Positions 29,893 through 48,689 of a stretch of 64,000 bases of DNA are shown piece by piece; within the stretch, counting starts at the first letter, position 1; each line of letters begins with the position of its first letter. A model generated the notes under the pieces. It did no database searches, was not told the DNA's origin, and was given only the letters and a program-made list of their open reading frames with translations. The translations under genes and the position numbers were made by a program. The stretch comes from Ornithinimicrobium flavum (GTDB taxonomy: Bacteria; Actinomycetota; Actinomycetes; Actinomycetales; Dermatophilaceae): positions 2,480,001-2,544,000 of the forward strand of contig NZ_CP038213.1 in assembly GCF_004526345.1 (NCBI RefSeq), read 5' to 3'.

Positions 29893-29941
29893 GCCACCGC
29901 CCCCGCCGAGGTCAGGGAGCGCGCCTGCGGGTGGAGCAGCC

Positions 29942-30118
29942 TCAGGTGCGGTCCTGCTTGTTGCGCTCCGAGGTGATCCGGCGGCCCCCGCCGGCCCCGT
30001 CGTCCTCGCTCTCGTCGTCGTCGGCGGTGATGACCACCTGGACGTCCACGTCGTACACGCGCCGGATCTCGGCCAGGACGTCCTCGAGGGGGACGTCGTC
30101 GCTGATGGTGAAGGTCAT
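29942..30118 (-). CDS. small acidic hypothetical protein (58 aa)
   Basis: A short frame from ATG 30118 to TGA at 29942 encodes 58 residues: MTFTISDDVPLEDVLAEI, a VQVVITADDDESEDD acidic stretch, and a basic end RRITSERNKQDRT. The codon third positions are mostly G/C, as in real genes here. It converges on thioredoxin with 49 nt between them. It is not recognised; it could be a regulatory small protein. No membrane or signal segment is visible. Confidence 0.45.
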   Translation of the reverse strand: MTFTISDDVPLEDVLAEIRRVYDVDVQVVITADDDESEDDGAGGGRRITSERNKQDRT

Positions 30119-30227
30119 CCCCGCAACCTAGGGCATCCCCGCCCCGCTGTCACCCGGTCCTGACACCTGCGTGCCCGACGCCGGGAAAGGTCTTCCCTTC
30201 CAGGTCAGGCGGTGCTTGACTGCCTCC

Positions 30228-31251
30228 ATGCGTGCGCAGGGGCAGGCGATGACGGTCTCGTGGATCCCCTCGGCCTCGGTCGAGGGCTGGCTGAAGAGCG
30301 GGTTCGACGTGGGTCTGTCCCACTACGACGACCCGCCCACGGACGTGATCGCCGGGGCCGAGGACCTGCGCGCGCTGCGGGACGACGACAGGTTCCGCTT
30401 CGCGAACCTGCTGCAGGGGTGGGCCGAGTTCTCCCCGGAGGGCACCACGGGCGGGTATGCCGAGGGCTCGGACCTGCTCATGGGCAGCACGACCGTCCGG
30501 GTCGGGGTCGCCGCCGTGAGCTTCCTCGGCTACTCCCTGCCCGTGCTGCGCTCCGAGCCCGTGGTCGAGCAGGACCGGGTCGTGCTGCGGCAGACGGTGG
30601 GCGGCCGCACGGGGGTCCCGCTCCCCCGCCGGGTGAAGCACCCACCCTTCGTCCGCTGGCACGCCCCCCATCGTCTGGACGACGCTCCAGCTCACCCTCA
30701 CCCGGGACGGGGAGCGGCTGGTCGAGCTGGTCGGGGCCTCCGCCTTCCCGCGGCACTGGGTCTACGACAGCGACGGCCGGCTGAGCCGCAAGAGCGGTCT
30801 GACCCAGCTGCAGGACTGGATGGACCACAGCTTCGGGGACCGCACGCCCTGGGGGGACCAGGACTCGACCGCCCTGACCGTGGCTGCGGAGTCGGGGGCG
30901 GAACGACGCCTGTCCGGGGTCATCATGGGCGGCCGGCCCGAGATCGTGCGTCTCGGCGAGGGCGTTGAGCTCCTACGCCAGGGCGAGGAGGGGACCGACG
31001 TCTTCCTCGTCCTCGACGGCGTCCTGGACGTGAGCGTGGACGGGGACGTCGTGGCCGAGGTGGGGCCCGGAGCGGTGCTCGGGGAGCGGGCGGCGCTGGA
31101 GCACGGTCGCCGGTCCGCGACGGTGACCACCCGGACCGCGGCGCGTCTGGCGCGGGTGCCCGCCTCCTCCCTCGAACCGGGCGGGCTCGGCGAGGTGGCG
31201 CAGGAGCACCGCCGCGAGGAGCAGGGGCCCGGTGGTGGGAACGGGGGCTGA
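30228..31251 (+). CDS. cyclic-nucleotide-binding-domain protein, frameshifted in the middle
   Basis: The N-terminal half (about 1-145) is an unrecognised domain (MTVSWIPSASVEGWLKSGFDVG; FLGYSLPVLRSEPV). At 30664-30669 a run of six C disrupts the frame; with five, KHPPFVRWHAPIVWTTLQL continues through LTRDGERLVELVGASAFPRHWVYD into a cyclic-nucleotide-binding domain: VEHLR-like VELLRQGEEGTDVFLVLDGVLDVSVDGDVVAEVGPGAVLGERAALEHGRRSATVTTRTAARLARV. The RSA segment after GERAALEHGR is the expected phosphate-binding cassette (family: GExALL...RxA). ATG 30228 or 30249 may be the start. It overlaps the cyclase gene by 20 nt. Confidence 0.75.
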
Positions 31252-33849: not shown

Positions 33850-33851
33850 CG

Positions 33852-33885
33852 GAGCCCGACCCTGCCGGGAGGCAGGGCCGGGCTC
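33852..33885. terminator. bidirectional terminator hairpin
   Basis: GAGCCCGACCCTGCC (33852-33866) pairs with 33871-33885 over 15 positions with one mismatch around a GGGA loop, between the convergent cyclase and nuclease genes. Confidence 0.7.
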
Positions 33886-33894
33886 AGCCGATGT

Positions 33895-36800: not shown

Positions 36801-37635
36801 TCGTGGGGGCGATCGTCAGCGTCGCGGTGGCCGCCACGCCCTCCGCCGTCGGAGCGGTGACGTCCTCGAGGGTGATCCCGTCGACGGGCTCGGAGGTGAT
36901 GACCAGGGTCTCGATGCCGCTGTCCTGGTCGACGGCCGACAGCGGGGAGGTCGCTCCCTCACCCTGGGTGGCGCTGACAGCGGTCTGGCAGGACATCGTC
37001 GGCGGCAGCGGGTCCCCCGACGCCACGAACACCTGGTCGTTGTTGGTCGCACCGGGCGTCTCGACGGCCGGTGCCTGCCAGGTGAAGTCTCCGTAGGAGT
37101 CGCCGGTGCCGCTGAGCTGGAGGGAGTGACCAACCGGAGTAGTGTCGGGCTCCGAGACCCCGATGTCCGTGCTCGTCTGACCGTCGGCGGCCCCACCCAC
37201 GGCATCGAATGTGCCCTCGTAGGAGAGGAACTGTACGAGGGAGTCCGAAGCATCGACCAGCGCGACGCCATCCGGTGAGCCGTTCTGCAGGACGATCGGC
37301 AACGAAAGGTATCCGAAGCCGGTGCCGCTGTCGTCCCCCAGCGTGCCGGACAGGGCCTCGGTGGCGTACACGGCTCCACCGTTGCCGTTGTAGAGGACGA
37401 TCGACCAGCCGGTCAGGTCCGTTCCCGCCGGTCCGGCGACCTCGACGAACTCACCGACATCGGTGCCGACGTTGTCGTAGTGCAGCTCGTTGATGAAGAC
37501 GGCGGAGTCGGGGGCGACGGCGGCCGCCGGTGGGACGACGGCGAGCATGCTGCCGAGCACCGCGAGGGATGCGCTGGCCGAGACGGCCGTCGAGGCCCGC
37601 CTGCGTCGTTGCAGGCGAGAGGGTAGAGCGGTCAT
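33895..37635 (-). CDS. secreted ExeM/NucH-type nuclease with wall-binding repeats
   Basis: A 1246-aa exported protein. Signal peptide 1-39 (ends VPPAAAVA). Lamin-tail-like domain ~42-200 (SAVFINELHYDNVGTDVGEFVEVAGPAG). Ig-like region ~210-310. NucH/YhcR OB-fold ~315-420 (ISDVQGSGASSPLDGEEVQVEAVVTS). Endonuclease/exonuclease/phosphatase domain ~580-910 with LQVASFNVLNYF, AVNHLKSKGSGCG and the catalytic TSDHDPVIVGL. CWB2 repeats ~915-1240 (three or more units starting IAGKDRYATAAK, IAGKDRYHTAAL, LAGADRYLTSVA). ExeM nucleases cut extracellular DNA and RNA; the CWB2 repeats should hold this one on the wall, so it may feed on or remodel biofilm DNA (inferred). Confidence 0.9.
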   Translation of the reverse strand: MTALPSRLQRRRRASTAVSASASLAVLGSMLAVVPPAAAVAPDSAVFINELHYDNVGTDVGEFVEVAGPAGTDLTGWSIVLYNGNGGAVYATEALSGTLGDDSGTGFGYLSLPIVLQNGSPDGVALVDASDSLVQFLSYEGTFDAVGGAADGQTSTDIGVSEPDTTPVGHSLQLSGTGDSYGDFTWQAPAVETPGATNNDQVFVASGDPLPPTMSCQTAVSATQGEGATSPLSAVDQDSGIETLVITSEPVDGITLEDVTAPTAEGVAATATLTIAPTTALGDYQVEITATSDDGAQATCTVAVTVSEPLAPTLISDVQGSGASSPLDGEEVQVEAVVTSLITSADALNGFYVQEEDEDADADPATSEGVYVFCGSTCPADLSSGDLVEVIGTVDEFFDNTQINATGGSIEVVESGLALPTAAVVTLPAGSSTEDPATFEAVEGMLTTFSTTLAVSEYFNLARYGEIVLTADEREYQYTETNAPSVEGYQAFLDDLATRRIVLDDDSNDQNDATSGPMDNEPYYYPTPGLSTGNYFRGGDTITDLTGAMEYSFGAWKLRPVPGLDYTFEPANPRPATPDEVGGRLQVASFNVLNYFATIDTTSSNDVGTCGPSGTMDCRGADSEVERERQLAKIAAALTEIDADVYGLIEIQNDEGEATQQIVDALNAATAPGRYDFIDTGFIGTDAIKQAYVYDTTTVEPVGDFALLTEAVDARFDDDRNRPALVQSFDEIATGERFTVAVNHLKSKGSGCGEGDDSPQDGSGNCDGTRTEAAAALADYLAGDPTGSGDPDVLVIGDLNSYSMERPITTLEAAGYVDLLEAFAGTGFYGYLFDGLLGNLDHALANASLTEQVTGAGGWKINADEVPLFDYNDDIRDLGEAAFERESDALPLYEADAYRTSDHDPVIVGLSLGGPEVTDIVDRIAGKDRYATAAKIAMEYPTDVDTVYIATGNQFADALAGAAPAAKGLVPSGAAGSGMEQMTVAPDGSPAPVLLTRVGSLPSATEAALEAIDPSNIVILGGEVAVSEAVEAELEAYGTVTRIAGKDRYHTAALLAAQYGEVDHVYVATGEGENFPDALSGGALAGSEGVPVLLVRGDSVPGAVTQVLAHLGDPAVTILGGEVAVSEDVADELGATDRLAGADRYLTSVAVAERFGYSEENPADAVYVATGEDYPDALAGSALAGSQDVPVMLSRQDSVPSGVLSAMVGISPAAVFILGGEVALSEAVEAQLEETFNTGGTLNQRR

Positions 37636-37769
37636 GGGTGGTCCTTTGGATCGGGGAGGGATTTTCGCATGCTAGTCCGCCCCGATGGACCGTGGCCAGA
37701 GACACAACGACAACAGGGAGAACTCAACGGCAACAAGTCCCCTCGTGCCTGACCGGCGTCGGAGGCTCC

Positions 37770-39902
37770 TCAGGACGCCTGGAGGCTGAGCCGCTCCCCC
37801 AGGGCGTCCTCGAGGAGGGCGACGAGGGCCTCGAGCTGCACGTCGGAGGAGTCGGTGATCTCCTCGTCAGCGCCGTCGAGCGCCCGGGCGGCCAGCCCCG
37901 CCTTGGCGTCGATGAGCTCGGCGATCCGGGCGTCCATCGTCTGCGCGGCGATGATCCGCCACGCGGTGACCGGCTCCTCCTGCCCGATCCGGTGGACCCG
38001 GTCGATCGCCTGGGTCTGCTCGGCGTCCGTCCACGACAGCTCGGCGAGGACCATGTTGGAGGCGACCTGGAGGTTGATGCCGACGCCGGCGGCCGTCAAC
38101 GAGCACACGGCGACGGCGACGTCGGGGTCGGAGGTAAACGCGTCGATGTTCTTCTGCCGGGCCGAGCTGGTCTGGTCGCCCCGGATGGAGGCGTAGCGAA
38201 GGCCCCGCTGGGCGAAGGTCGCCTCGGCGGCGTCCATGACGTCGATGTGCTTGGCGAAGAAGACGACCTTCCCGGCGCTGCGCGCGAGCTGTGCCGCGTA
38301 GTCGGCGGCGAGGCCGGCCTTGGCCTCCCCGATACGTCGCATCATCGTGAAGACGTTCTCGCCCGACTTCTTGGAGGCGGTGCTGGCCCGCTCCCGCGCG
38401 GCGACCTGACGCACGAGGTCGTGGTCGATGCCCTCGACGACCGCCCCCGTCCTCCGGGTCTCCAGCGCCTTCTCGTAGCGCGTGACGAGGCGACGGGCGA
38501 GCCTCTGCTCGGCGGCCCGGACCGACCGCCCGGCCTCGTCGTCGATCTCGACGGGGACGTCGGCCACCCTGCGCGCGGGCAGGTCGGCGGCCACGTCCAC
38601 CTTGCGGCGCCGGACGATGCCTCGTTCGATGACCGCCGACCGGGCGGCGGCGGAGAAGCCGCGGTCCGCCGGCGTCAGCCCGGTCTCCTCGAGCGCGGTC
38701 ATGAGCTCGCCGAGCGGCCTGGTCTCGTCGATCCAGCCGAGGAACTGCCAGATCGCCGTGAAGTCCTCGATGTCGTTGATCAGCGGTGTGCCCGTCAGCG
38801 CCATGAGCAGCGGGTCGGCGGTCCGCGTGCGGATGCGCTCGGACAGGCGCAGCACGTTCTGGGACCGCTGGGACTTCCGGTTCTTGATGTAGTGCGCCTC
38901 GTCGACGACCATCCCGCGCAGGCCCAGGTCGCCGAGCCAGCCCACGTGGCGGTCGAGGATCTCGTAGTTGACGACGATGATGTCCGCGAAACCGTCGATG
39001 GTGTCGCCGTCGCCGTGGACGACCGTCGCGGGGTGGTTCGGGGTCCAGAGACCGGCCTCGCGCGCCCAGTTCATCTTGACGACGTTGGGCACGACGACGA
39101 GCAGGGGGTAGGCGTCAGCCGCCTCGGCGGCGAGCAACGCCTGAGCCGTCTTGCCCAGGCCCGGCTCGTCGGCGAGCAGGAAGGTCCGGTGACCCTCGGC
39201 CGCGGCGGCGACCAGCCGCGCCTGGTGCGGCATGAGCTCCAGCGTCCCCGCGGCGCGGCGCGCGACCGGCTCCGGCAGCTCCATGCAGGACAGGGTGCCG
39301 CCGTCCTCGAAGGAGCGCAGGAGGGGCTCGATGAGCTCCCACCCGGCCAGGCGCCGGGGCTTGGCGTTGGCCCTGGCCACGGCGGAGTAGTCCGGCGGGA
39401 GAAAGGGGTTGGCGAGCTGGCGGGACACCACGGACCGGGGCACCACCCTGCGCTGGGCCTCGGCCGGGGCTTCGGCCGGCTCCTCAGGCTCCTGCGGCTC
39501 GTCCGGGACCTCGACGCCGGCGTCCTCGAGGAGCTCCCGGCGCAGCGACCGGGCACGGTCGGAGAGGACGGCGTCGTCGGCGAGCAGCCCGAGCAGCGAG
39601 CTGTCGCGGGCGGCCGTGGTGGCGAGGATGGTGGCGATGCCGTCGAGACGCTTGAGCTCCTCCGTGCGCCGCGCTGCCGAGATGGCCTCGTCGCTCCTGA
39701 CGCGGGCGCGCTCCTCACGCATGAGCAGGGCGACCACCTGGAACTTCGTCCGGGTGGAGGGCACGGAGCGGCCGCGCTGCACCGCGGACTCGACCTCGCG
39801 GACCACCCTGGCGAGCACCGGGATGATGCCGTCGTTGTCCGGGCGGGGTCCCCGCCGGGTGCGCGTGCGTGCGCCGTGCTGGCGCTGGGCTCCTCGAGCC
39901 AC
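37770..39902 (-). CDS. SNF2-family DEAD/DEAH helicase
   Basis: A 710-aa SWI2/SNF2-type ATPase. From GTG 39902: N-terminal helical region (~1-200), then DEPGLGKTAQALLA (motif I), VVPNVVKMNWAREAG (Ia), MVVDEAHYIKN (II, DEAH), MALTGTPLINDIED (III), and C-terminal motifs VVFFAKHIDVMDAAE, VCSLTAAGVGINLQ and QAIDRVHRIGQ (VI). This is the SMARCAL1-like HARP-free branch often near DNA-repair genes; substrate and role are not shown. Its upstream region marks the left end of the integrated element at 40131. Confidence 0.9.
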   Translation of the reverse strand: MARGAQRQHGARTRTRRGPRPDNDGIIPVLARVVREVESAVQRGRSVPSTRTKFQVVALLMREERARVRSDEAISAARRTEELKRLDGIATILATTAARDSSLLGLLADDAVLSDRARSLRRELLEDAGVEVPDEPQEPEEPAEAPAEAQRRVVPRSVVSRQLANPFLPPDYSAVARANAKPRRLAGWELIEPLLRSFEDGGTLSCMELPEPVARRAAGTLELMPHQARLVAAAAEGHRTFLLADEPGLGKTAQALLAAEAADAYPLLVVVPNVVKMNWAREAGLWTPNHPATVVHGDGDTIDGFADIIVVNYEILDRHVGWLGDLGLRGMVVDEAHYIKNRKSQRSQNVLRLSERIRTRTADPLLMALTGTPLINDIEDFTAIWQFLGWIDETRPLGELMTALEETGLTPADRGFSAAARSAVIERGIVRRRKVDVAADLPARRVADVPVEIDDEAGRSVRAAEQRLARRLVTRYEKALETRRTGAVVEGIDHDLVRQVAARERASTASKKSGENVFTMMRRIGEAKAGLAADYAAQLARSAGKVVFFAKHIDVMDAAEATFAQRGLRYASIRGDQTSSARQKNIDAFTSDPDVAVAVCSLTAAGVGINLQVASNMVLAELSWTDAEQTQAIDRVHRIGQEEPVTAWRIIAAQTMDARIAELIDAKAGLAARALDGADEEITDSSDVQLEALVALLEDALGERLSLQAS

Positions 39903-40130
39903 GAACTCCTCCTCGGAGCGATCGGTTCTTCCCCGGCGGCGGGACGGGCCCGCACCGCACCAACAGCGGGCGACGACGAGGAGCAGCTCGGCTGCCCGAC
40001 GTCCCCGGCGCCCAGGCTGGTCCGGCGGATCTGCAGGAGATCGACGCGTCGAACGGGTCCAGCCGCGATGGCCTCACCAGCGTACCTCCTGCTGGACCGC
40101 AGGGGGTACAGGACGTGCCGGGCGACAACG

Positions 40131-40168
40131 GCACAGCGTGAGACACGAGGGGCGGAGGTGGCGGGAAT
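40131..40168 (+). repeat. distal att-like repeat (partial ssrA 3' end plus trailer)
   Basis: GCACAGCGTGAGACACG (40131-40147), then a 6-nt diverged stretch, then GGAGGTGGCGGGAAT (40154-40168). The first and last blocks are identical to 47154-47170 and 47176-47190. The copy breaks off before the tmRNA TCAA loop, as expected for an attachment site rather than a gene. Confidence 0.8.
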
Positions 40169-40214
40169 CTCCCCGCCAATGCGCTGAACAGCGTCTTCGC
40201 GCGATTCTGCTCAC

Positions 40215-40234
40215 CTGTGTCAGTCCTGTGTCAG
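40215..40234 (+). repeat. two CTGTGTCAG repeats (left arm-type sites)
   Basis: CTGTGTCAG occurs at 40215-40223 and 40226-40234, an 11-nt period. The same unit occurs three times at 47017-47047 near the other end. This arrangement resembles arm-type sites for a tyrosine integrase. Nothing else recognised lies in 39903-40279 apart from the att repeat. Confidence 0.6.
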
Positions 40235-40279
40235 TTTCAGGTTGCCGGATTCCCGCACGCGGGACACGGGCGAGGTGCT

Positions 40280-40600
40280 TCAGAGCTGACGTAAGCGGTC
40301 GGCCAGGGGCCCGAGGTGGTTGTCGACGATGTCGAGGATCAACTCGGCATCCACACGGAAGTACTCGTGCACGACGACGTTGCGCAACCCCGCGATCGCT
40401 CCCCAGGGGACGTCTGGCGCGCGGTCGCGGGTCTCGCTGGGTAGCGCCCGGACCGCTTCCCCGATCACGGCCAAGTTGCGCAGCACCGCGTCGTAGGCCA
40501 TCGCGCGGAACTCTTCGGAACCAAGATGCTGCGTGTAGTTCTGACAGCGCTCGATCGCGTGCAGGATGTCGGCGAAGCGTTCTCGCTCGGATCGGGTCAC
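40280..40600 (-). CDS. hepT: HepT-family toxin (DUF86)
   Basis: A 106-aa all-helical HEPN-superfamily protein. The RNVVVHEYF motif near residue 73 is the RX4HXY catalytic signature; the Tyr is the residue that MntA antitoxins modify by adding AMP units in the characterised Shewanella system. HEPN proteins are typically RNases or bind nucleotides. The GTG start overlaps the mntA stop by 4 nt, antitoxin first. It sits next to the left att repeat, a usual place for stabilising cargo. Confidence 0.88.
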   Translation of the reverse strand: MTRSERERFADILHAIERCQNYTQHLGSEEFRAMAYDAVLRNLAVIGEAVRALPSETRDRAPDVPWGAIAGLRNVVVHEYFRVDAELILDIVDNHLGPLADRLRQL

Positions 40601-40917
40601 ACCGGCACCGCATCGTTGAGCGCGGTAGTCGACACCTCATCGCGCAGAAGGGCCGTCGTCACCACATCGACGCGGCGTCCCACTACCTCGCTGAGCTCCT
40701 CGCTCATGCCTGCCACGCGCAACAGGGGGTTCCCAGCGTCGGGCAGCAGATCCACGAGAAGGTCGAGATCGCTGTCCGCGTCGGCGTCGCCTCGGGCGAC
40801 CGAGCCAAACATTCTCGGATTCGTCGCGCCGTAACGCTTGAGGATCTCGTCGAGAGCGTCACGATGCGCGGCCACAACCGCTCGGAGGGCGGCGCTGTCG
40901 GACGTGACGGTGCTCAT
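40597..40917 (-). CDS. mntA: MntA-family nucleotidyltransferase antitoxin
   Basis: A 106-aa minimal nucleotidyltransferase. The GSVARGDADADSDLDLLVDL motif (about residues 38-57) matches GSX10DXD with both metal-binding aspartates. MntA enzymes neutralise HepT by AMPylating a Tyr next to its active site. ATG 40917 is the start; the stop overlaps the hepT start. Together with HepT it is a type VII-like toxin-antitoxin module. Confidence 0.88.
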   Translation of the reverse strand: MSTVTSDSAALRAVVAAHRDALDEILKRYGATNPRMFGSVARGDADADSDLDLLVDLLPDAGNPLLRVAGMSEELSEVVGRRVDVVTTALLRDEVSTTALNDAVPV

Positions 40918-40990
40918 GGCTCAAGGGTAGAGGGCTGTCACCACGCACGAACCGGACTCGCCTCGCGGGAGATGCGCGCGTGTGGTCGGG

Positions 40991-42112
40991 TCAGGGCTGG
41001 ATGACTGGCACCGGTCGCGGGTCGGTGTCCGTGTCGGTCACCCAGGCCAAGTCCGGCAGTGGCTCGTCGGGGGTCAGGCTCGCCAGGGTGACCAGGGCGG
41101 CGTGCAGCGTCGGTTCTCCCTCCTGGGCGTCCAGCCTGAGGGTCGTGAGCGTAGTGCCGTCCTGAAGGCGCAGTTCGCCGATGTCTTTGGGGAGCACCAC
41201 CACGACCTCGACCCCGTCGGTGGTGTCGGTCGGGAAGGCGACGGCGTAGGGCTCGGCCGAGACGGGAAACGGTCCGTTCACCTTCCCGTCGCGCATGACC
41301 CACTGCTGCTCCTGCCGGTCCTGACCCACCCAGGTGTCCGTGATCCGGGCAGCAGGGTCGTGCCCCTGCCACACACGTGAGGTGATCCCTGCGCTCCAGG
41401 AGGTGTGGACCAGCCCGTCGGTGCCTCGCCAGACCTGGGCGAGGTCCTCACCATCGGGCCAGGAATCCTCGAAGACGACCGCGTCCAGGTTCGTCCCCGG
41501 GACCCGTACGGGACTGGTCGAGGGCGCCTCCACACTGTCCGGGCCTACGCGGACCAAGTCTGTCGCGCCGTGCGACAGCATGACCCCCGTGACCCGTCGA
41601 CCGTCCGGAAGCTGCAGGCCGCTCCACCATGAGGACAACTCCTCCATGTGCGGGTCGACATCGTTGCCGAGGGCGCCCTGGACGGGCACGGTCGCGGGCA
41701 GTGCGTCGGCCGGCTCCGGGGTGGCAGACATGAGCAGAAGGTCACCTTCGGGACACCCCTGCGCCAGCCCGGCCACCACGGTGCTGCCGTCCCGCAGGGG
41801 GATGGCCACGTGCTCGAGGTCGGCGAGCTGAATGGCTCGCTCACCCGAGAGGGAACCGGAGATAGGACACCCCGACCACGGGGAGGCGGGCAGGGCACGC
41901 TACACCTCGCCTGGCAGCCAACCCCCGGCCCAGGCGACAGGTCCAAGAACTGCGAGGGAGGCCATACCTGCCACCAGGGCCTGGCCGGTGCGCCGGCGAC
42001 GGTGGCTGCGAGAGGCGACCCGGGTCACCGCGTCGGCGTCGAGCCGCAGCCCGGCGGGGTCAGGGGCGCTCGCGAGGCTGGCGCGGACGCGCTGCTCGAT
42101 GTCGGTGCTCAC
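40991..42112 (-). pseudogene. anti-sigma-like membrane protein interrupted by an in-frame TAG
   Basis: The first 70 codons from GTG 42112 encode VSTDIEQRVRASLASAPDPAG, a basic patch SHRRRRTGQ and one transmembrane segment (ALVAGMASLAVLGPVAWAGG), then a TAG at 41900-41902. The same frame continues without another stop for over 300 codons (ERAIQLADLEHVAIPLRDGSTVVAGLAQG ... WVTDTDTDPRPVPVIQP) to 40991, an apparent extracellular domain. Because the frame is kept, a W (TGG) to TAG change in one gene is the simplest view; alternatively two genes with a 41,809 start. The first codon overlaps the sigma-factor stop (GTGA), the usual layout for a sigma factor and its regulator. The outer domain is not recognised. 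Confidence 0.65.
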
Positions 42113-42627
42113 GGGTGGACCTCCTGTGTCGCGAGGTGTTCCCGCAGGCGGGCAAGCCCGCGGGAGGCCGCGCTCTTCACGGCCCCGGTGGAGATGCCGA
42201 GCTCGTCGGCGCACTGCTGCTCGGACAGGTCGCCGTAGCAGCGCAGCACCACGACCGTCCGTTGCCGCTCGGGCAGCAGGCGCAGGCCTCGCACCAGCCG
42301 GTCCTGCTCACCGGTGACCTCGGCGTGGTCCGGGGTGTGCGGCAGCAGGTCACCGGCGTCGGCGTCCGGGCGCACGCGGCCCCGGCCCTCACGCCGCCAG
42401 TCCTGACGGGTGAGGTTCAGCATGACGGTGCGGGTATAGGCGACTGCGCGGGGCGGGTCGACGCGGTGCCAGGCACGGTAGGTGCTCAGCAACGCACCCT
42501 GCACCAGGTCCTGGGCACGGTGCACGTCACCGGTGATGAACCAGGCGATGCGCAGCAGTTCCGGGCTCGCCTGCTCGACGAACTCGGTGAACTCCGCGTC
42601 GCGCTGACGCCGCCCGCGTGCTCCCAC
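42109..42627 (-). CDS. SigE-family ECF RNA polymerase sigma factor
   Basis: A 172-aa extracytoplasmic-function sigma factor of the SigE family. Region 2: EFVEQASPELLRIAWFITGDVHRAQDLVQGALLSTYRAWHRVD (about 15-57). Region 4: LRLLPERQRTVVVLRCYGDLSEQQCADELGISTGAVKSAASRGLARLREHL (about 115-165) with the HTH. The GTG start has a near-perfect AGGAGGTTGGC ribosome site. It is coupled by a 4-nt overlap to the transmembrane partner that is interrupted here. Carried on the ssrA element; its regulon is unknown. Confidence 0.92.
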   Translation of the reverse strand: MGARGRRQRDAEFTEFVEQASPELLRIAWFITGDVHRAQDLVQGALLSTYRAWHRVDPPRAVAYTRTVMLNLTRQDWRREGRGRVRPDADAGDLLPHTPDHAEVTGEQDRLVRGLRLLPERQRTVVVLRCYGDLSEQQCADELGISTGAVKSAASRGLARLREHLATQEVHP

Positions 42628-42764
42628 GCCAACCTCCTGTGTCGGACCTCACCCTCTCCTAGTCACCCACGGCGACAAAGGTTGCCTTCGGCTGAGCGGC
42701 ACCCCTGAAGAACCGGTGCTGGCCGAAGTGACACCGTCGGTGACAGAAGAATGCGCCGTTGGGC

Positions 42765-43268
42765 TCAGTCAGCGAACGGCTCAGCCCAGTTGGGCAGAGT
42801 GCCTAGGTGTGCAAGGAGCACCCAGGGTCCTTCGATCGTGAGGTTGTACTCCTCGTCGTTGACCAGGAGTGTCCAGCGCGCTTCGACCGCCTTCTTGGGG
42901 CGCCACCAGGGACCGAGGTGCTGGGCACCTTGCAGCCGAAGGCCGGACACCGGCAAGTCCATCTCTGCCCAGCGGGGTGTAATCGTCAGCCGATCCCGGC
43001 GGACGGTGCCAAGTTGCGGTCCGAAGCTGGCCGCTGGCATTGCTGGTCCACCCCCGCCGACCAGGACGTGGCCATAGCTGTCGGAGTCGATGCGAGGGTC
43101 GATCTCGTCCTCGGTGGCAATGACACCAGCGCCTCCAGAGCCACCTGTCGCCACGGACTGCAGCAGGCCAAGAGCGGTGAAAAACCCCAGCTTCGCGGCC
43201 CGGTTCATCCCTAGACGTGGCACGTGCGACCAGGTAATCGTCTGCGACAACCGCGGAGCCCGGCTCAT
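42765..43268 (-). CDS. hypothetical protein (167 aa)
   Basis: Not recognised. From ATG 43268 (MSRAPRLSQTITW) there is a weakly hydrophobic stretch GFFTALGLLQSVATGGSGGAGVI (about residues 28-50), which could be a signal/anchor, followed by a soluble C-terminal part with several Trp (WWRPKKAVEARWTLLVNDEEYNLTIEGPWVLL). An ATG 20 codons later (MNRAAKLGF) would place the hydrophobic region at the N-terminus. It lies between the sigma factor and the IS110 copy on the element. Confidence 0.5.
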   Translation of the reverse strand: MSRAPRLSQTITWSHVPRLGMNRAAKLGFFTALGLLQSVATGGSGGAGVIATEDEIDPRIDSDSYGHVLVGGGGPAMPAASFGPQLGTVRRDRLTITPRWAEMDLPVSGLRLQGAQHLGPWWRPKKAVEARWTLLVNDEEYNLTIEGPWVLLAHLGTLPNWAEPFAD

Positions 43269-43473
43269 GGCCTGAGAGTAGGGCCCCAACTTCGATGAGG
43301 CGCTCCTGGAAGGACTGGAGTGTTAAGGCCGCAGCTACGCGGTACACCTCGAGAACGTGCGGAGGTGTCGACCACGACCGGCTCACCTGCCGTGCGGCGA
43401 CTCGGCTCGAAGGAGCGCTCAGCGGCTACGTGTTTCATTGACGTCAGGATTGGGCCGGCCAGGCTCGGTTCTA

Positions 43474-43556
43474 GGTGACCGGGACGGTCGTTCTCTTTGC
43501 GGCTGCCCACGCTCCTGGCGTGAGGCTCACAATTGGCGTGCGTCGTCCCGGTCACC
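43474..43556 (+). ncRNA. candidate bridge-RNA region of the IS110 element
   Basis: GGTGACCGGGACG (43474-43486) and CGTCCCGGTCACC (43544-43556) are perfectly complementary 13-mers enclosing 57 nt that include a second hairpin CACGC-TCCTG-GCGTG (43508-43522). This lies ~100 nt upstream of the IS110 transposase, where IS110-group elements encode their structured bridge RNA. Element ends were not determined, and the loops cannot be matched to donor/target from sequence inspection alone. Confidence 0.4.
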
Positions 43557-43657
43557 GCCAGGGCTGCGAGAGGCTCAAGAGGGGTATGCCCAGCCGTACG
43601 TAGCGGTGCCCTCCCAGCTCGACACCACCAGGGTTGGCACGAGCAAGGGAGCAGAGC

Positions 43658-44842
43658 ATGGACGAGCAGGAGTCACCGCGGGTCGTGATCGGGATGGACC
43701 CGCACAAGCGCAGCGTCACGATCGAGGTCATGACCGCCGACGAGAGCATCGTCGGCGGGGGCCGGTTTCCCACCGACGCCGACGGGTACGGACGGCTGCT
43801 GGGGTACGCCCGCCAGTGGCCTGAGCGGGTCTGGGCGGTCGAGGGTTGCGCCGGCATCGGCAAGCACGTGGCCGACCGGCTGGTCGCCGACGGTGAGGAC
43901 GTCGTGGACGTGCCGGCGAAGATGTCGGCGCGGGTGCGGATCTTCACCACCGGGCAGGGGCGTAAGACCGACGTCACCGACGCCCACTCCATCGCCCTGG
44001 TCGGGGTACGCATGTCCGGGCTGCGCCCGGTCATCAACGACGAGCAGCTGGAGGTGCTGCGGATGTGCGTGGACCGGCGCCGGTCCCTGGGCGAGGAGCA
44101 CACCCGCAAGGTCTGCCAGCTGCACAAGCTCCTGCTCGAACTCATCCCCGGCGGGGCCAAGACGTTCCTGTCCGCGGCCCAGGCCAAGGAGCTGCTCAAG
44201 AAGGTCCGCCCCACCACGGCGGCCGGTAAGGTCCGCAAGGCCCACGCCCTGGAGCTGACAGCTGACCTGGCCACGATCTACGCCCGAACCAAGGCTGCCG
44301 ACAAGGAGCTGAAGACGCTGGTGGAGGCGACCGGGTCCTCGCTGCTCGGCCTGCACGGCATCGGACCCTCCGGCGCCGCCCGACTCCTAGTGGAGGTCGG
44401 CGACATCACCCGCTTCCCCGACCGCAACCACTTCGCGTCCTGGACCGGCACCGCCCCGATCGACGCCTCCTCCGGCGAGCACGTCCGTCACCGCCTCTCC
44501 CGGGGCGGGAACCGTCAGATCAACCGGGTGCTGCACATCATGGCCATCGTTCAGCTGCGCACCAGGACCACCGAGGGCCGGGCCTACTACGACCGGAAGA
44601 AAGCCGCCGGCAAGACGTCCATGGAAGCGCTGCGCTGCCTGAAACGACGCCTGTCCGACCTGGTGTACAAGCAGATGCTCAACGACCTTGCCGGGCACAC
44701 GGCGACGGGCCCGGGAGGGCACCTGGGCGACGACTCTGACTCCAGCGCGACCGGCTCACAACCCGACACCGGCTCTTCGGACAAGCCACTTCCCGGACCC
44801 GCCACCACCGAGCCTAGAACGACACTCCCGACGGCGTCTTGA
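43658..44842 (+). CDS. IS110-family transposase
   Basis: A 394-aa DEDD transposase. N-terminal RuvC-like half: VVIGMDPHKRSVTIEVM (first catalytic Asp), WAVEGCAGIGKHVADRL (Glu), KTDVTDAHSIALVGV (Asp pair). C-terminal Transposase_20 half: SLLGLHGIGPSGAARLLVEVGDITRFPDRNHFASWTGTAPIDASSG and RGGNRQINRVLHIMA, with the Ser of the serine-recombinase-like site in the DASSG segment. The start is ATG 43658 behind AAGGGAG. The C-terminal ~50 residues are disordered. Complete and probably able to act; no terminal inverted repeats were found, as is normal for this family. Confidence 0.92.
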   Translation: MDEQESPRVVIGMDPHKRSVTIEVMTADESIVGGGRFPTDADGYGRLLGYARQWPERVWAVEGCAGIGKHVADRLVADGEDVVDVPAKMSARVRIFTTGQGRKTDVTDAHSIALVGVRMSGLRPVINDEQLEVLRMCVDRRRSLGEEHTRKVCQLHKLLLELIPGGAKTFLSAAQAKELLKKVRPTTAAGKVRKAHALELTADLATIYARTKAADKELKTLVEATGSSLLGLHGIGPSGAARLLVEVGDITRFPDRNHFASWTGTAPIDASSGEHVRHRLSRGGNRQINRVLHIMAIVQLRTRTTEGRAYYDRKKAAGKTSMEALRCLKRRLSDLVYKQMLNDLAGHTATGPGGHLGDDSDSSATGSQPDTGSSDKPLPGPATTEPRTTLPTAS

Positions 44843-44904
44843 CATAGAGGGGTGCCAGATGCGCGTCTGGTGGGCCGCAACCGCCAAGTTGAACCGTCAC
44901 GCGG

Positions 44905-45234
44905 TCAGGATCCAGTTGCCGTCGTCCACCATCCGGAGGAGACCGCTTGCTGCCACTCCTCTTCGGTCGGCACAAGCAGACCTGCATAGTGACCGTCTTC
45001 ATCGTGGTCGAAGCCCACCGCAAAGCTGATCGGCTCATCCTCGAGTCCGACAAACTGAACGATGCAATGATTGCCTCCCGGGCCGTAGAACTTCTGGACG
45101 ACGCCGGGGTGGTGGCGCACCAGAATGTGCCCACGCTGCAGCAGATCAGGGTCAGCAATTGCGAGGGTGTCCGCGGGCCCCGCGTACAACACGCGCTGCC
45201 CGACAGACACCTCGTCTGAATGCAAGAACCGCAT
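44905..45234 (-). CDS. hypothetical protein (109 aa)
   Basis: Not recognised. It starts MRFLHSDEVSVGQRVLYAGPADTLAI and has DPDLLQRGHILVRHHPGVVQKFYGPGGNHCIVQFVGLEDEPISFAVGFDHDEDGHYAGLLVPTEEEWQQA-type content with many acidic residues and no signal or membrane segment. The phrase YGPGGNHCIVQFVG suggests a small beta-barrel. It lies just downstream of IS110, so its right part could have been affected by the insertion. Confidence 0.5.
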   Translation of the reverse strand: MRFLHSDEVSVGQRVLYAGPADTLAIADPDLLQRGHILVRHHPGVVQKFYGPGGNHCIVQFVGLEDEPISFAVGFDHDEDGHYAGLLVPTEEEWQQAVSSGWWTTATGS

Positions 45235-45383
45235 GTCTCAGTCTGTCACCGAGAGCACGAAGATCGGCGGTACCGCGCGCCCTGATGGGGGGGGTACCTT
45301 CGGTGCCGGAGGTGTCGCCGCGATCGGCGCTGGACAGGAACCTCTGAGACGTGTCATACCTAAGGGGCGGTAAGGAGCACAGC

Positions 45384-45587
45384 ATGAAGTTCCGCTTGGC
45401 CCCTAAAGGGGAGCACACGATCTACATCGAGCACGGCGTCTGGTACGACCATTCGACCAAGCACATCCACGTCACTGTTCACGGCGCCAAGGGCGCCCAC
45501 TGGGCCTATGGCAAGTCCGATAAGCGCTACCTGCAGTACAAAGCGATGCTGCAGGAGGCCGGCCGCTGGCCGGAACGTATCGACTAG
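45384..45587 (+). CDS. small hypothetical protein (67 aa)
   Basis: Not recognised. ATG 45384 follows AAGGAGCACAGC. The product, MKFRLAPKGEHTIYIEHGVWYDHSTKHIHVTVHGAKGAHWAYGKSDKRYLQYKAMLQEAGRWPERID in shortened form, is rich in His, Tyr and Lys, has no hydrophobic segment, and is probably cytoplasmic. It lies in the lower-GC part of the element. Confidence 0.5.
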   Translation: MKFRLAPKGEHTIYIEHGVWYDHSTKHIHVTVHGAKGAHWAYGKSDKRYLQYKAMLQEAGRWPERID

Positions 45588-45673
45588 GGGGCGTTCAGGA
45601 CGACACACCGGCCGCGGCACGGTCGGACGCTACGCGACCGCAGCGGCATAGGTGAGTCTCGCTCGTCGGACTC

Positions 45674-46359
45674 TTGACGCCGTGGTGTGCGGGGAGTATC
45701 GTCCCGCCTCACCGGAGCGTGGAATCTCGTGCACGTTCTACTTACGCAGGGGGGGCTATTGAGATGCGGGTGCAATCCTTCGTGGGCGCACCGAACAAGT
45801 CAGGGCAGTCCACCTACTCCTTCGGAAATCGGCAAACCACATCCTGGCCGGGCAATGCGGACATCTACGGTGACTTCACATTTCTGGGCGTGCACCAGGG
45901 TACGATGCCAGCATCTGGACTTCGAACACGACCACGGATTCCATCAAGGCGGCCTACTGGCACCCGCGTAGTGTTGACTCGCAATTGTGCGCTAGCGGCC
46001 GAAGCGCCACGAAGTGCCGCTATCACATCATCAGCATTGAAGGCACGGTGTGGCTGGGCGCCCCCCCCTTCCTGACGGAAGTCTGGCCGGTGACGATGAT
46101 GAGATACCGCCCCGACCATGTCAACGACTCCTGTGACGGGTGGATAGGGGGCGACTCCGGGGGTGCGGTGTATTTCAGCCATTGGTCTGGCTCGGGTCGG
46201 GTGGCACACGGTCTCATCACAGGGTCCACAGACTCTTGCCCACCACTCTCCAAGAAGAATTATTACTCCTCAGAACTGTGGGGTGTCGGACGTTGGGGTG
46301 ACACCGCCGGCAGGTCTGTAGGTATCCCCCTCGACGGTGGCGGCTATTCATGGTACTGA
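45674..46359 (+). pseudogene. S1-like serine protease fragment, frameshifted and 5'-truncated
   Basis: The second half reads SQLCASGRSATKCRYHIISIEG..., then DSCDGWIGGDSGGAVYFSHWSGSGRVAHGLITG, where GGDSGGA is the catalytic-Ser motif of chymotrypsin-like proteases. The first half is in another frame (MRVQSFVGAPNKSGQSTYSFGN... GDFTFLGVHQG) and one extra G at 45898-45900 (CAGGGTAC to CAGGGGTAC) joins it to YDASIWTSNTTT, which may hold the catalytic Asp. No AGHC-like catalytic-His motif or signal peptide is found upstream, so the gene seems to have lost its 5' end as well. The lipoprotein gene starts 10 nt before its stop. Confidence 0.6.
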
Positions 46360-46874
46360 CGCGCAGTGAAGCGGCCCTGCGACCGTCTCGCAAGCTAGGG
46401 GGCGCGGCCTGCCTTCGACTCCTCTTGATCGGCGTCGCCGGGGCTGCCCTCGCAGGGTGCGGAGACCGGAGCAGCCCCGAGCCCGCGGCTTGGACGCTCG
46501 ACCCCACAGACGGCGTGATCTCCGCGGAGTCATTCACCGTTCCCGACCAGGTCGCGGCCGGTGACCAGTTCGACGTGACCTTCGAGGAGTCGGTGGACCG
46601 GGAGATGGTGTACGACCTCTACCACGACGACGCCGAGGTCTGGACGGCGCGCTACCAGCTGTTCCCCCCGGGATCCGGCTCCGGGTCGTCCGAACCGTCC
46701 TGGGTCGCTGCGGGCGAGGAGGTCAACATCGCCTCTGTCGGCCTGACAGGCACGGGCCCGGACCGCCTCGTCATCCCACAGGACGCAGATCCTGGACGCT
46801 ACGTGCTGTGCGTCCGCGAGGCCGTCGACCCGCCCCGGACCCGGTGCGCACCGCTGGAGGTGGTGGCACCCTGA
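46350..46874 (+). CDS. putative lipoprotein overlapping the protease fragment
   Basis: A 174-aa protein with a long N-region, a hydrophobic stretch LLLIGVAGAALAGC and lipobox ALAGC at residues ~32-36, so it should be a membrane-anchored lipoprotein. The mature part has a beta-rich look (FTVPDQVAAGDQFDVTFEESVDREMVYDLYHDD, PGRYVLCVREAVDPPRTRCAPLEVV), with Cys in VLCVRE and TRCAP that may pair. It starts inside the last codons of the protease frame, suggesting coupled expression. Not recognised as a named family. Confidence 0.65.
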   Translation: MVLTRSEAALRPSRKLGGAACLRLLLIGVAGAALAGCGDRSSPEPAAWTLDPTDGVISAESFTVPDQVAAGDQFDVTFEESVDREMVYDLYHDDAEVWTARYQLFPPGSGSGSSEPSWVAAGEEVNIASVGLTGTGPDRLVIPQDADPGRYVLCVREAVDPPRTRCAPLEVVAP

Positions 46875-46879
46875 GGGGA

Positions 46880-46990
46880 CGCGACCCCGAGCGATTGGGT
46901 CGTGCCCTGGTAGTCCATCCGGACCCGGTAGCGGCCCCTGAACCGGGCGATGCCACGAGGCAGGCGGGCCCCCGCGTCCTTCGCGCTCAC
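46880..46990 (-). pseudogene. truncated tyrosine integrase start (~36 codons)
   Basis: From GTG 46990, behind GGAGGGGGATGAC, the frame reads VSAKDAGARLPRGIARFRGRYRVRMDYQGTTQSLG in two parts (shown here in fragments: LPRGIARFRGRYRVRM, YQGTTQSLG), the arm-binding N-terminus of phage-type integrases. Homology stops at about 46880, where the lipoprotein gene ends. The catalytic domain is absent from the window. It is oriented away from ssrA and directly beside the att repeat, as for ssrA-specific integrases. Confidence 0.6.
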
Positions 46991-47016
46991 GTCATCCCCC
47001 TCCGGGTCGAGCCAGG

Positions 47017-47047
47017 GTGTGTCAGCCCTGTGTCAGTTCTGTGTCAG
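47017..47047 (+). repeat. three CTGTGTCAG-type repeats (right arm-type sites)
   Basis: Units at 47017-47025 (GTGTGTCAG), 47028-47036 and 47039-47047 (both CTGTGTCAG) recur with an exact 11-nt period. They match the pair at 40215-40234. Confidence 0.65.
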
Positions 47048-47097
47048 TTTTTCTGCCAGCTTGAGGCTACTCCTGACCACCCGTGTCCAGACGCACG

Positions 47098-47139
47098 AAA
47101 CCCCCAGATCCGCGTCCTGATGCGGCATTCTGGGGGTTG
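47098..47139 (-). terminator. terminator-like hairpin downstream of ssrA
   Basis: AACCCCCAGA (47099-47108) pairs perfectly with TCTGGGGGTT (47129-47138), with an inner CCGC/GCGG stem. In the minus-strand transcript it follows the tmRNA trailer and is followed by TTTCG. Confidence 0.55.
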
Positions 47140-47153
47140 ACGTGCGACAACTC

Positions 47154-47190
47154 GCACAGCGTGAGACACGTGGGTGGAGGTGGCGGGAAT
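47154..47190 (+). repeat. ssrA-proximal att-like repeat
   Basis: GCACAGCGTGAGACACG (47154-47170), TGGGT, then GGAGGTGGCGGGAAT (47176-47190): the 3' end of tmRNA plus its trailer. Repeated at 40131-40168 with a few differences in the middle. Confidence 0.8.
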
Positions 47191-47538
47191 TGAACCCGCG
47201 TCCGTTACCGGGAAATCAGGGCTTCTCCGGGTGCAGTGCGCTAGGGATTTTCTCGGCCCCAGGGCTCGCGCGCACACGTTCCCTGACAGGCCCAGTCACG
47301 TAGGAGTCCCGCACCGTCCCGTGACCTGACGGTGAAGCAAGTCCTCTAGCTGATGCCAGACACTGAGTCGAGGACTAGCTCAGGCTGACAGACTTCGGGC
47401 TCGCTCAGGCGGCGAGGGCGAAGTCGCTGCGCTTGGAATTGGCAGCTATTGGTTTCGCAAGGAGCGTTGACGAGATGACCTTGCATCCTCGACCCGCTTC
47501 CCCTGAAGTGCCGTGCAACGTCGAAACCGATCACCCCC
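47172..47538 (-). ncRNA. ssrA: transfer-messenger RNA (tmRNA)
   Basis: tmRNA rescues stalled ribosomes with SmpB. The 5' end GGGGGTG (47538 downwards) pairs with CACCTCC (47182-47176) as the acceptor stem; GGTTTCGAC near the 5' end and the T-arm GCGGGTTCAATTCCCGC near the 3' end are diagnostic. The tag reading frame (47446-47405, minus) encodes (A)ANSKRSDFALAA and stop. The tail encodes ACCC instead of ACCA, so the terminal A must be added after trimming. It lies beside smpB on the same strand, and the integrated element follows its 3' end. Confidence 0.96.
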
Positions 47539-47544
47539 ATGGGG

Positions 47545-47560
47545 GTGTCTCACGCTGTGC
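47545..47560 (-). other. tmRNA leader half of a precursor stem
   Basis: On the minus strand this is GCACAGCGTGAGACAC, six bases before tmRNA position 1. It is perfectly complementary over 16 nt to the trailer (47154-47169), so the precursor can form a stem continuing the acceptor helix across a small internal loop. Confidence 0.6.
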
Positions 47561-47574
47561 AGTTGTCAATCGAC

Positions 47575-47592: not shown

Positions 47593-47651
47593 ACGTCTCA
47601 GTCTAGTGCGTCAACGCCGTCCGGTCCACGACCATTCCCCGTGCGCGTGCC

Positions 47652-48128
47652 TCAGCCGTGCTGCTTGAGGTGGGCGGACATGGCCCGCTCCGCCTCGCGC
47701 CGGTCCTGGCGCTCGCGCAGGGTCTGTCGCTTGTCGTGCAGCTTCTTGCCCTTGGCCAGCGCGATCTCGACCTTGGCCCGCCCGTCCTTGAAGTAGAGGG
47801 ACAGCGGCACGATGGTGTGGCCGGCCTGCTCGGCCTTGCTCACCAGCTTGTCGATCTGGTCACGGTGCAGGAGCAGCTTGCGCCGACGCCGGGCGGAGTG
47901 GTTGGTCCACGTCCCCTGGGAGTACTCCGGGATGTGCACCCCCTCCAGCCACAGCTCGTCCCCGTAGACGGTGGCGTAGCCGTCCACGAGCGAGGCCCTC
48001 CCCTGACGCAACGACTTCACCTCGGTCCCGGTCAGCACGAGGCCGGCCTCGACCGTGTCCTCGATGAGGTACTCGTGCCGGGCCTTCTTGTTGCTCGCGA
48101 TGAGCTTGCGACCGGTTTCCTTGGGCAT
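47652..48128 (-). CDS. smpB: SsrA-binding protein
   Basis: SmpB (158 aa) binds the tRNA-like part of tmRNA and carries it into stalled ribosomes. Visible features: [40 protein letters not shown] (OB-fold core), [26 protein letters not shown], and the basic C-terminal tail [24 protein letters not shown] that probes the mRNA channel. The start is ATG 48128. It is upstream of ssrA on the same strand, a common pairing. Confidence 0.97.
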
Positions 48129-48269
48129 GACCGCCCCAGTCTACCGACCCGAGGTATGTCGTTCCTCCGGTTTGACCGGCGGCACCACCGTGGCCGTTGC
48201 GCTTGCCCGCCCTCCGGGGAGCGGGCAGGGTGAGGCGCACCGCATACCCCACCCCGAAGGAGAACCGCC

Positions 48270-48689
48270 ATGACGACCGCCCGAGACATCATGAGCACCC
48301 AGGTCCGCACCGTCTCCGAGGACCAGTCCCTGGTGGACGCCGCAGTCCTCATGCGCGACCACAGCGTCGGGGCGGTGCCGGTGACCGCCGCCGACGGCCG
48401 CCTGGTCGGCATCGTCACCGACCGGGACATCGTCGTCTCCGGGGTGGCCAGCGGCCGGGACCTGGCCGCGACCGCCGCGGGCCAGCTGGCCCAGGGCATC
48501 GTGTCGACCGTCTCCCCCGACGAGGACATCGACCGCATCGTGGCCACGATGGGCGACCAGCAGATCAAGCGGCTCGTGGTGATGGAGGGCACCCAGCTGG
48601 TCGGCATGATCAGCGAGGCCGACCTGGCACGCCACGTCGCCGACGACAAGGTCGTGGACTTCGTGAAGATGGTCTACGGTCGCGGCTGA
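48270..48689 (+). CDS. CBS-domain-pair protein
   Basis: A 139-aa protein made of two CBS motifs in tandem: DIMSTQVRTVSEDQSLVDAAVLMRDHSVGAVPVTAADGRLVGIVTDRDIV (1-53 region) and GIVSTVSPDEDIDRIVATMGDQQIKRLVVMEGTQLVGMISEADLARHV. CBS pairs bind adenosine nucleotides such as AMP or ATP. The stand-alone form is common in actinobacteria as hypoxia- or stress-related regulators; the partner is unknown. GAAGGAGAACCGCC gives a good ribosome site before ATG 48270. Confidence 0.93.
   Translation: MTTARDIMSTQVRTVSEDQSLVDAAVLMRDHSVGAVPVTAADGRLVGIVTDRDIVVSGVASGRDLAATAAGQLAQGIVSTVSPDEDIDRIVATMGDQQIKRLVVMEGTQLVGMISEADLARHVADDKVVDFVKMVYGRG

Follow-up and report, generated by a model that had tools for sequence, protein, structure and literature searches.

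A probable decayed ssrA-targeted element in Ornithinimicrobium flavum, its attachment repeat, and the leader–trailer stem of pre-tmRNA

The 7-kb segment next to the transfer-messenger RNA (tmRNA) gene ssrA of Ornithinimicrobium flavum is very probably a decayed element that was targeted to ssrA by a tyrosine integrase, and whose attachment (att) repeat also covers the trailer strand of a stem in the tmRNA precursor (pre-tmRNA). The segment lies in a stretch of 64,000 nucleotides, here called the window, which corresponds to nucleotides 2480001–2544000 of contig NZ_CP038213.1 in a genome of 3,712,913 bases; feature coordinates below are those of the window. An earlier note on this DNA, made from the sequence alone, had proposed an ssrA-targeted element that lost its recombination gene. 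This is supported by the homology of both ends to ssrA elements of relatives, several of which have an intact tyrosine integrase.

Repeats and ends of the element

The tmRNA gene (tag ANSKRSDFALAA) lies at 47173–47538 on the minus strand, with its 3′ end facing left. The near-identical repeats that the earlier note placed at 40131–40168 and 47154–47190 are indeed there, and their similarity extends outward by a few bases, to 40124 and 47147 (GACAAC). The displaced att copy (40124–40168, minus strand) contains the last 16 nucleotides of the tmRNA gene with one difference, a spacer, and the trailer strand. Compared with the ssrA-side copy, whose trailer strand and spacer occupy 47147–47172 (minus strand), it has G instead of A at the base after the acceptor stem, and the spacer also differs. 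With an intact tmRNA gene at one end and, at the opposite end, a displaced 3′ fragment of like orientation, the segment has the arrangement of Islander-type elements. The 16-mer GCACAGCGTGAGACAC, common to both copies, occurs exactly three times in the genome, twice forward and once in reverse, all at this locus; its reversed control pattern occurs nowhere in the genome. With up to three mismatches allowed, 1.4 occurrences are expected by chance in the window and three were found, all exact. On these counts, a chance origin of the repeats is rejected. The third copy, which the earlier note did not report, is inverted and lies at 47545–47560, just upstream of the tmRNA 5′ end, in the leader.

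Also new with respect to that note are the CCTGTGTCAGTYCTGTGTCAGTTT repeats within both ends, at 40214–40237 and 47027–47050; two were found against 0.00 expected. Read in the tmRNA sense, CTGACAC units 11 bp apart are seen twice at the left end (40214–40237, minus strand) and three times at the right end (47016–47050, minus strand). In the genus, whose genomes are given here by G numbers with G000 for the window genome, CTG(A/T/G)CAC units 11 bp apart are located at −67/−56 from the core in 14 of the 16 displaced copies; those of G003 are at −68/−57, and G040 has one unit only. On the ssrA side, at least one unit is present about 123–150 bases beyond ssrA at 15 of 24 loci (24 of the 30 loci were examined), and G000, G002, G003, and G015 have three. 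Core and arm-type sites on both sides represent, as a sequence pattern, the att site of a tyrosine integrase, and these units are candidate integrase arm sites.

Both ends of the segment resemble the ends of fuller ssrA elements. In G002, a 20.8-kb element lies between ssrA and a displaced copy. Its genes include one for a 408-amino acid (aa) protein in which Phage_integrase (PF00589) and SAM-like domains are recognized, and next comes a TrwC relaxase of 1301 aa. Over positions 47232 to 46883 of the window, 332 of 350 nucleotides (95%) are identical to the ssrA-side end of this element, and the identity stops at 46883, after 36 codons of the integrase. The 36-codon integrase remnant that had been noticed beside ssrA is thus the first 36 codons of a tyrosine integrase gene (46883–46990, minus strand), 94% identical to the G002 integrase over 36 aa. 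The other end, 40116–40935, which includes a HepT/MntA gene pair, is 83–85% identical to the corresponding ssrA-element ends in G011, G017, G039, and G044, and a piece of it is found near ssrA in G006 and G041 (all among the matches listed). Of the 13 relatives compared, G013 is 99% identical in the tmRNA upstream of the core and 69% in the 290 bases after the core, while the respective values for G002 are 91% and 94%. This contrast indicates that the tmRNA-side flank has a history different from that of the tmRNA gene. Open integrase genes are seen beside ssrA in eight genomes (G002, G003, G011, G013, G017, G019, G039, and G043). The integrase is split in G044 and G005, and remnants are left in the window genome and G041.

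Integration at ssrA by a tyrosine integrase is strongly supported. The paired att copies, the phased arm-type repeats at both ends, the truncated integrase, the ends homologous to fuller elements, and the decayed, mosaic interior are all seen in the sequence. The interior is considered mosaic because DNA similar to its middle parts occurs at different sites in G042, G012, G010, and G043, among the matches listed (e.g., 40965–42703, 91% in G042). The interval between the repeats contains no intact integrase, only the 36-codon remnant, so the integrase that Islander expects inside the interval is missing. Neither a relaxase nor another transfer gene was found among the scanned open reading frames (ORFs) of the element, and it is not classified as an integrative mobilizable element. 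It is filed as a decayed derivative of ssrA islands, one more ssrA element and not a complete member.

At least one displaced att copy is present in 14 of the 31 genomes of the genus, including the window genome. In six of these 14, the copy is on a contig other than that of ssrA, and G001 has three displaced copies in a row. This recurrence, the match of both ends to the ssrA-element ends of relatives, and the fixed offsets of the arm-type repeats make it hardly credible that the segment belongs to the ordinary chromosome and that a tmRNA fragment arose at 40.13 kb by chance or by duplication, even if such an origin would agree with the lack of an intact integrase between the repeats and with the occurrence of the middle parts elsewhere in relatives. 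Six trailer-like 16-mers with 0–1 mismatch and without the core pattern were also observed, in G002, G014, G038, G040, G042, and G043 (the last one exact); they are possibly older att scars.

Several facts weigh against an insertion of the element at this site. The displaced copies were gathered with the pattern TTCCCGCCNCCTCCNC, so that the agreement of their cores is by construction, and four matches to the pattern without a trailer were left out (G006:938801, one in G015, and two in G018). Arm-type units are absent from the ssrA side in G019, G006, and G040 despite their displaced copies, and present in G041, G042, G015, and G005, none of which has a displaced copy. No relative was seen with exactly this locus empty, which would have ssrA joined to the SNF2 helicase gene that here lies to the left of the element. 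This SNF2 side is itself rearranged relative to relatives. On the other hand, the units are also absent in G016, G021, G020, G018, G012, and G038, all without a displaced copy. Broken integrase pieces beside ssrA are seen in G041 and G005, so a site with no displaced copy is not necessarily virgin.

The history of the element can be reconstructed as follows. It was very probably inserted into the 3′ end of ssrA by its tyrosine integrase. An internal deletion probably removed the integrase and any relaxase; the truncation itself is seen directly. An IS110-family insertion sequence (IS) would also have landed in the element, which now appears to be stuck.

Comparable systems are described in the following papers. 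The element resembles the ssrA islands of the Islander database (PMC4383910) in having an intact tDNA at one end and a displaced 3′ fragment at the other, in the tandem arrays, and in the tyrosine integrase, here encoded by more complete relatives. It differs from them in the cut of the integrase to 36 codons and in the repeat, which runs past the RNA 3′ end through the leader-pairing trailer; the words "trailer" and "terminator" are absent from the main text of that paper. According to the same paper, no tRNA isoacceptor type is as enriched among integration targets as the tmRNA gene. The Dehalococcoides ssrA islands (PMC3146451) show similarly recurrent and tandem occupancy with displaced repeats, although they use a serine recombinase and a 20-bp repeat, and their insertion was inferred in the T-loop. 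The TrwC (MOBF) types among the integrative and conjugative elements of Actinobacteria (PMC3218068) correspond to the element of G002, with its integrase next to a TrwC relaxase, and not to the window element, among whose scanned ORFs no relaxase is seen. The CP4So prophage of Shewanella oneidensis (PMC5148205) is likewise retained at the 3′ end of ssrA through att copies that match imperfectly, and its excision would change the tmRNA. CP4So still excises, whereas the element here is without an integrase and its displaced copy carries the A-to-G change after the acceptor stem as well as spacer changes. By analogy with CP4So, if an integrase of the family acting in trans excised it with a crossover in the T arm, ssrA would be left with the displaced letters, including G for A after the acceptor stem.

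Leader–trailer stem of pre-tmRNA

The inverted third copy of GCACAGCGTGAGACAC is part of the leader strand of pre-tmRNA (47545–47567, minus strand), which pairs with the trailer strand at 47147–47169. In the predicted minimum free energy fold of the window sequence, GACAACU-GCACAGCGUGAGACAC pairs with GUGUCUCACGCUGUGC-GAGUUGUC, giving 23 bp outside the acceptor stem with a small internal loop between. The z score of this stem is −8.15, and none of 100 shuffles was as good.

The pairing is seen throughout the genus and in other genera of the family. All 30 tmRNAs of the genus were used; at these 30 loci the trailer is complementary to the leader, and z is below −3 against shuffled trailers in 29. 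The duplex between the leader and its own trailer has a median of −50.1 kcal/mol, against −38.0 kcal/mol for cross-genome combinations, and the own duplex beats the cross median in 26/30. For the family outside the genus, the best-scoring 90 of 118 genomes with a match were taken and 89 were used. Their own median is −43.3 kcal/mol versus −29.0 kcal/mol across genomes, with the own duplex better than the cross median in 81 of 89 and z below −3 in 70. The class-wide actinobacterial sample (69 of 70 genomes, drawn from 88 with a match) gives no stem signal: the medians are −24.2 (own) and −25.0 kcal/mol (cross), the own duplex is better in 33/69, and z is below −3 in 5/69. This sample still holds two members of the family, L220 and L235, and L235 is the strongest of these five.

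Covariation was examined in 106 anchored stems, 81 of them distinct. Changes on both sides, 6 to 36 at each position, are found at position 4 and positions 6–13, and none at position 5. In the 11-pair core, 95% of the cells pair and 168 two-sided changes are counted; with the partner slid by 1–3 bases, these values become 18–56% and 9–56, a comparison that favours the unslid version since the stem register was chosen for each sequence to maximise pairing. At least 10 of the 11 core pairs are reached in 99 of 110 own combinations versus 1389 of 7136 cross combinations between leaders differing at four or more places. Some observations count against a family-wide stem. The outer positions 0–2 are unpaired in 34–46 of the 81 distinct stems. 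Foreign trailers also pair well, with at least 12 of 14 positions paired in 3348 of 11,416 cross pairs compared with 76 of 110 own pairs. Moreover, nine of 119 leaders had no anchor and were dropped, as were four that pair at 8 positions and thus fall below the limit of 9 of 14. Because positions 0–2 are often unpaired, only the 11-pair core is taken as family-wide, and the longer stem as local. The compensatory base changes between leader and trailer support the pairing of the trailer with the tmRNA leader in this bacterial family.

The inverted repeat might instead be a site at the DNA level, bound by a regulator or a recombinase. Covariation would also be expected of inverted DNA repeats to which a single protein binds, and rearrangements of smpB and a CBS-domain gene adjoin the repeat. 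Against these stand the position of the two strands just outside the two mature RNA ends, the formation of the stem in the predicted RNA fold, its presence in genomes without a displaced copy, and the G–U pairs. Of the 729 cells at positions 4–12, 690 are Watson–Crick pairs, 23 are G–U, and 16 are all other combinations. The excess of G–U over the other non-Watson–Crick cells favours RNA over DNA-level pairing, and a DNA site is quite unlikely.

In ribosomal RNA (rRNA), the leader and trailer of the stable RNA pair across the mature sequence and form processing stems cut by RNase III. The stem described here has the same kind of leader–trailer pairing, around tmRNA, as known from the sequence and the predicted fold. 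By its length and by the rRNA precedent, it may serve as a processing stalk: RNase III would probably cut the stem, and RNase P and exonucleases would then complete the ends. Its occurrence across an actinobacterial family makes this part of tmRNA maturation accessible to testing. In Streptomyces venezuelae, ssrA rises in an RNase III mutant, according to PMC12096830, which neither supports nor refutes the stem. The tmRNA precursor of Bacillus subtilis is structured and binds flavin mononucleotide (FMN), according to PMC5876405, and this structure is distinct from a leader–trailer stem. Neither a leader–trailer stem of pre-tmRNA nor its inclusion in an att repeat was found described among the open-licence PMC papers and passages covered by the searches.

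A reading of TTGACAACTGCACAG, upstream of ssrA, as a promoter was dropped, for the stem covaries and a similar leader motif ends near the mature 5′ end in the class sample. Of the 69 genomes in this sample (L191–L260), 29 have a leader motif like AACTNNACA that stops only a few bases from the 5′ end of the mature tmRNA. A likely −10 element, TAGACT, read by eye, is located further upstream of ssrA, at 47605–47600 (minus strand). Separately, by a simple end-finding rule, only 11 of the 30 ssrA genes of the genus have a templated CCA (window 47170–47173), compared with 77 of 89 from the rest of the family and 15 of 69 from the class sample.

The trailer strand within the attachment repeat

Both att copies were compared in 16 copy pairs of the genus. 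The 16-nucleotide core differs in two of the pairs, by one base each, where the collection pattern allows change at two positions only. The trailer shows 0–1 base difference in 15 of the 16 pairs; the remaining one, in G003, has one substitution and a 1-nucleotide deletion (seven differences when ungapped). The 30 bases past the trailer differ at 0 to 25 positions. The 20 bases before the core differ at 10–17 positions, and this strong difference indicates that the shared block starts in the T-loop. Such a start may point to a T-arm crossover, like that inferred for other ssrA elements.

Since both copies hold the tmRNA 3′ end and the trailer strand, the attachment site of the element (attP) must contain both, wherever the crossover lies. 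The pairing between trailer and leader would explain why the repeat extends past the mature end of tmRNA: an inserted element has to leave the leader–trailer stem intact, and attP may carry the trailer strand for this reason. Selection on elements to carry a matching trailer is plausible. We lean slightly towards the reading in which the pre-tmRNA of this family is closed by the covarying stem and attP has evolved a matching trailer strand, so that insertion rebuilds the whole RNA maturation unit. With a crossover in the T arm, the rebuilt unit would include a terminator carried by attP; a terminator-like hairpin for ssrA is seen at 47097–47138 (minus strand).

It is possible, though doubtful, that the trailer is in the repeat only as part of the core site of the integrase, with the RNA stem incidental to mobility. 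In its favour, the two copies of the trailer strand have at most one base difference in 15 of the 16 pairs, and an unusual spacer is common to both copies in G002, G006, and G010. The spacer letters within the block differ in 8 of the 16 pairs, however, so identity throughout is not needed, and genomes of the family with and without a noted element alike keep the stem.

For the rebuilding of the maturation unit by insertion, the same spacer differences between the tmRNA end and the trailer in 8 of the 16 pairs are an adverse point. So are the Mantel comparisons, which do not separate a trailer brought to the ssrA side by the element from one retained by the host. For the ssrA-side copies (17 of 30, one trailer type), the correlation r of the spacer is −0.07 with the 3′ flank, 0.09 with the host upstream region, and 0.32 with the host tmRNA. 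For the displaced copies (14 of 16), it is 0.50 with the outer flank and 0.42 with the inner end.

Elements at ssrA are understood to restore their target gene. If the restored unit must include the precursor stem, RNA maturation would limit which elements can occupy ssrA, and this would explain why att repeats extend beyond the RNA end. If insertion rebuilds the whole maturation unit, the host range of an element would be tied to the leader of the host tmRNA.

Empty sites, flanks, and interior genes

The empty arrangement in the genus appears to be ssrA–trxA. Eight genomes (G016, G021, G020, G008, G018, G023, G014, and G012) have no displaced copy and have trxA 1.0–3.1 kb after ssrA; these are taken as sites without the element. 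The distance is 2.3 kb in G005, where a split integrase is present, and 5.2–5.7 kb in G007 and G022. trxA was not seen within the stretch examined around ssrA in G038, G041, G042, G015, and G009. The displaced copy is 1.2 kb from trxA in G003 and 1.0 kb in G010. In the window genome, trxA lies about 10 kb beyond the displaced copy and 17 kb from ssrA. The empty site predicted by the earlier note, ssrA followed by one repeat and the SNF2 gene, was not seen among these. The same genes between the same flanks in all members, which that note named as evidence against an insertion, were not seen either: no relative among the matches listed has the whole gene set at the same place.

Housekeeping genes resume immediately outside the element, as had been claimed, on the ssrA/smpB side. 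The claim does not hold for the far side. A close match to the SNF2 gene is present in only nine of the 31 genomes, including the window genome, and the gene is therefore regarded as accessory. It is near ssrA in one of the eight relatives with a match (G038, 7.8 kb apart), more than 400 kb away in G002, G013, and G041, and on another contig in G001, G003, G015, and G022. The region upstream of SNF2, which relatives conserve along with the gene, extends to about 40,096. Between trxA and the element, at 29893–39902, lie about 10 kb of genes (a 1246-aa CWB2-repeat nuclease, the SNF2 helicase, and others) that none of the examined relatives was seen to have at the corresponding place.

The outer 29.9–40.1 kb with SNF2, the CWB2-repeat nuclease, and more genes could be a second, older ssrA element, which would make the true insertion 17 kb. 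The 1.0–3.1 kb between ssrA and trxA in nine relatives, as compared with 17 kb here, and the rarity of SNF2 near ssrA (only G038 of the eight relatives) are in line with it. The extent of the SNF2-linked region to about 40,096 suggests, on the contrary, that SNF2 was probably the neighbour before the element arrived. No third att copy was detected in the window with a 32-copy profile; this is weak, as a 1-nucleotide length difference made the profile miss the known displaced copy too. A second element is unlikely.

Within it, the toxin–antitoxin pair, the extracytoplasmic function (ECF) sigma factor, and the IS110 element of the earlier note were all recognized by Pfam and NCBIfam. The HepT-like RNase toxin gene (40280–40600, minus strand; PF01934, E 2.4e-24) and the MntA-like nucleotidyltransferase antitoxin gene (40597–40917, minus strand; PF01909, E 2.2e-11; PADLOC PDC-S09, E 1.5e-28) are adjacent. 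The Pfam families HepT-like and NTP_transf_2 score above their cut-offs, while the NCBIfam equivalogs HepT_toxin and MntA are below theirs. The SigE-family ECF sigma factor gene (42109–42627, minus strand; Pfam, and TIGR02983 above cut-off) is adjoined by a pseudogene at 40991–42214 (minus strand), which is divided by a stop into two open frames, 40991–41809 and 41900–42214, in one frame. Its real start lies within the second open frame, and its homologue in G042 is open. It has no family match, and its position beside the sigma gene suggests an anti-sigma-like product.

The IS110-family IS occupies 43422–44857 (plus strand), with its transposase at 43634–44842. A 99% identical copy exists elsewhere in the same genome. 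Several more full or partial copies of this IS, whose transposase is named RNA-guided by NCBIfam, are among the matches listed in this genome, with 76–99% identity. The frame-broken ORF at 45674–46359 (plus strand) corresponds to the "broken protease" of the earlier note. The broken frame is real, and no family match was obtained for it at the cut-offs used. The label of a possible serine protease remnant comes solely from GDSGG, which we take to be a serine protease motif. The other ORFs are a 174-aa ORF with no Pfam or NCBIfam match (42765–43289, minus strand), a 109-aa ORF (44905–45234, minus strand) whose DNA is 82–86% alike at other sites in G010 and G012, a 78-aa ORF (45351–45587, plus strand) with 80% alike DNA in G043, and a 174-aa lipoprotein-like ORF with no family above cut-off (46350–46874, plus strand). 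A homologue of the integrase is found elsewhere in the same genome (873276–874457), 71% identical over residues 6–399, a match interrupted by a single TAG.

Between ssrA and M23/ftsX/ftsE, smpB and the CBS-domain gene (47652–48689) have been reordered and turned repeatedly in the genus. For example, ssrA, the CBS-domain gene, and smpB follow each other in this order and all point one way in G005, G009, G014, G019, and G038, and smpB is reversed relative to ftsEX in G016, G042, G001, and G013.

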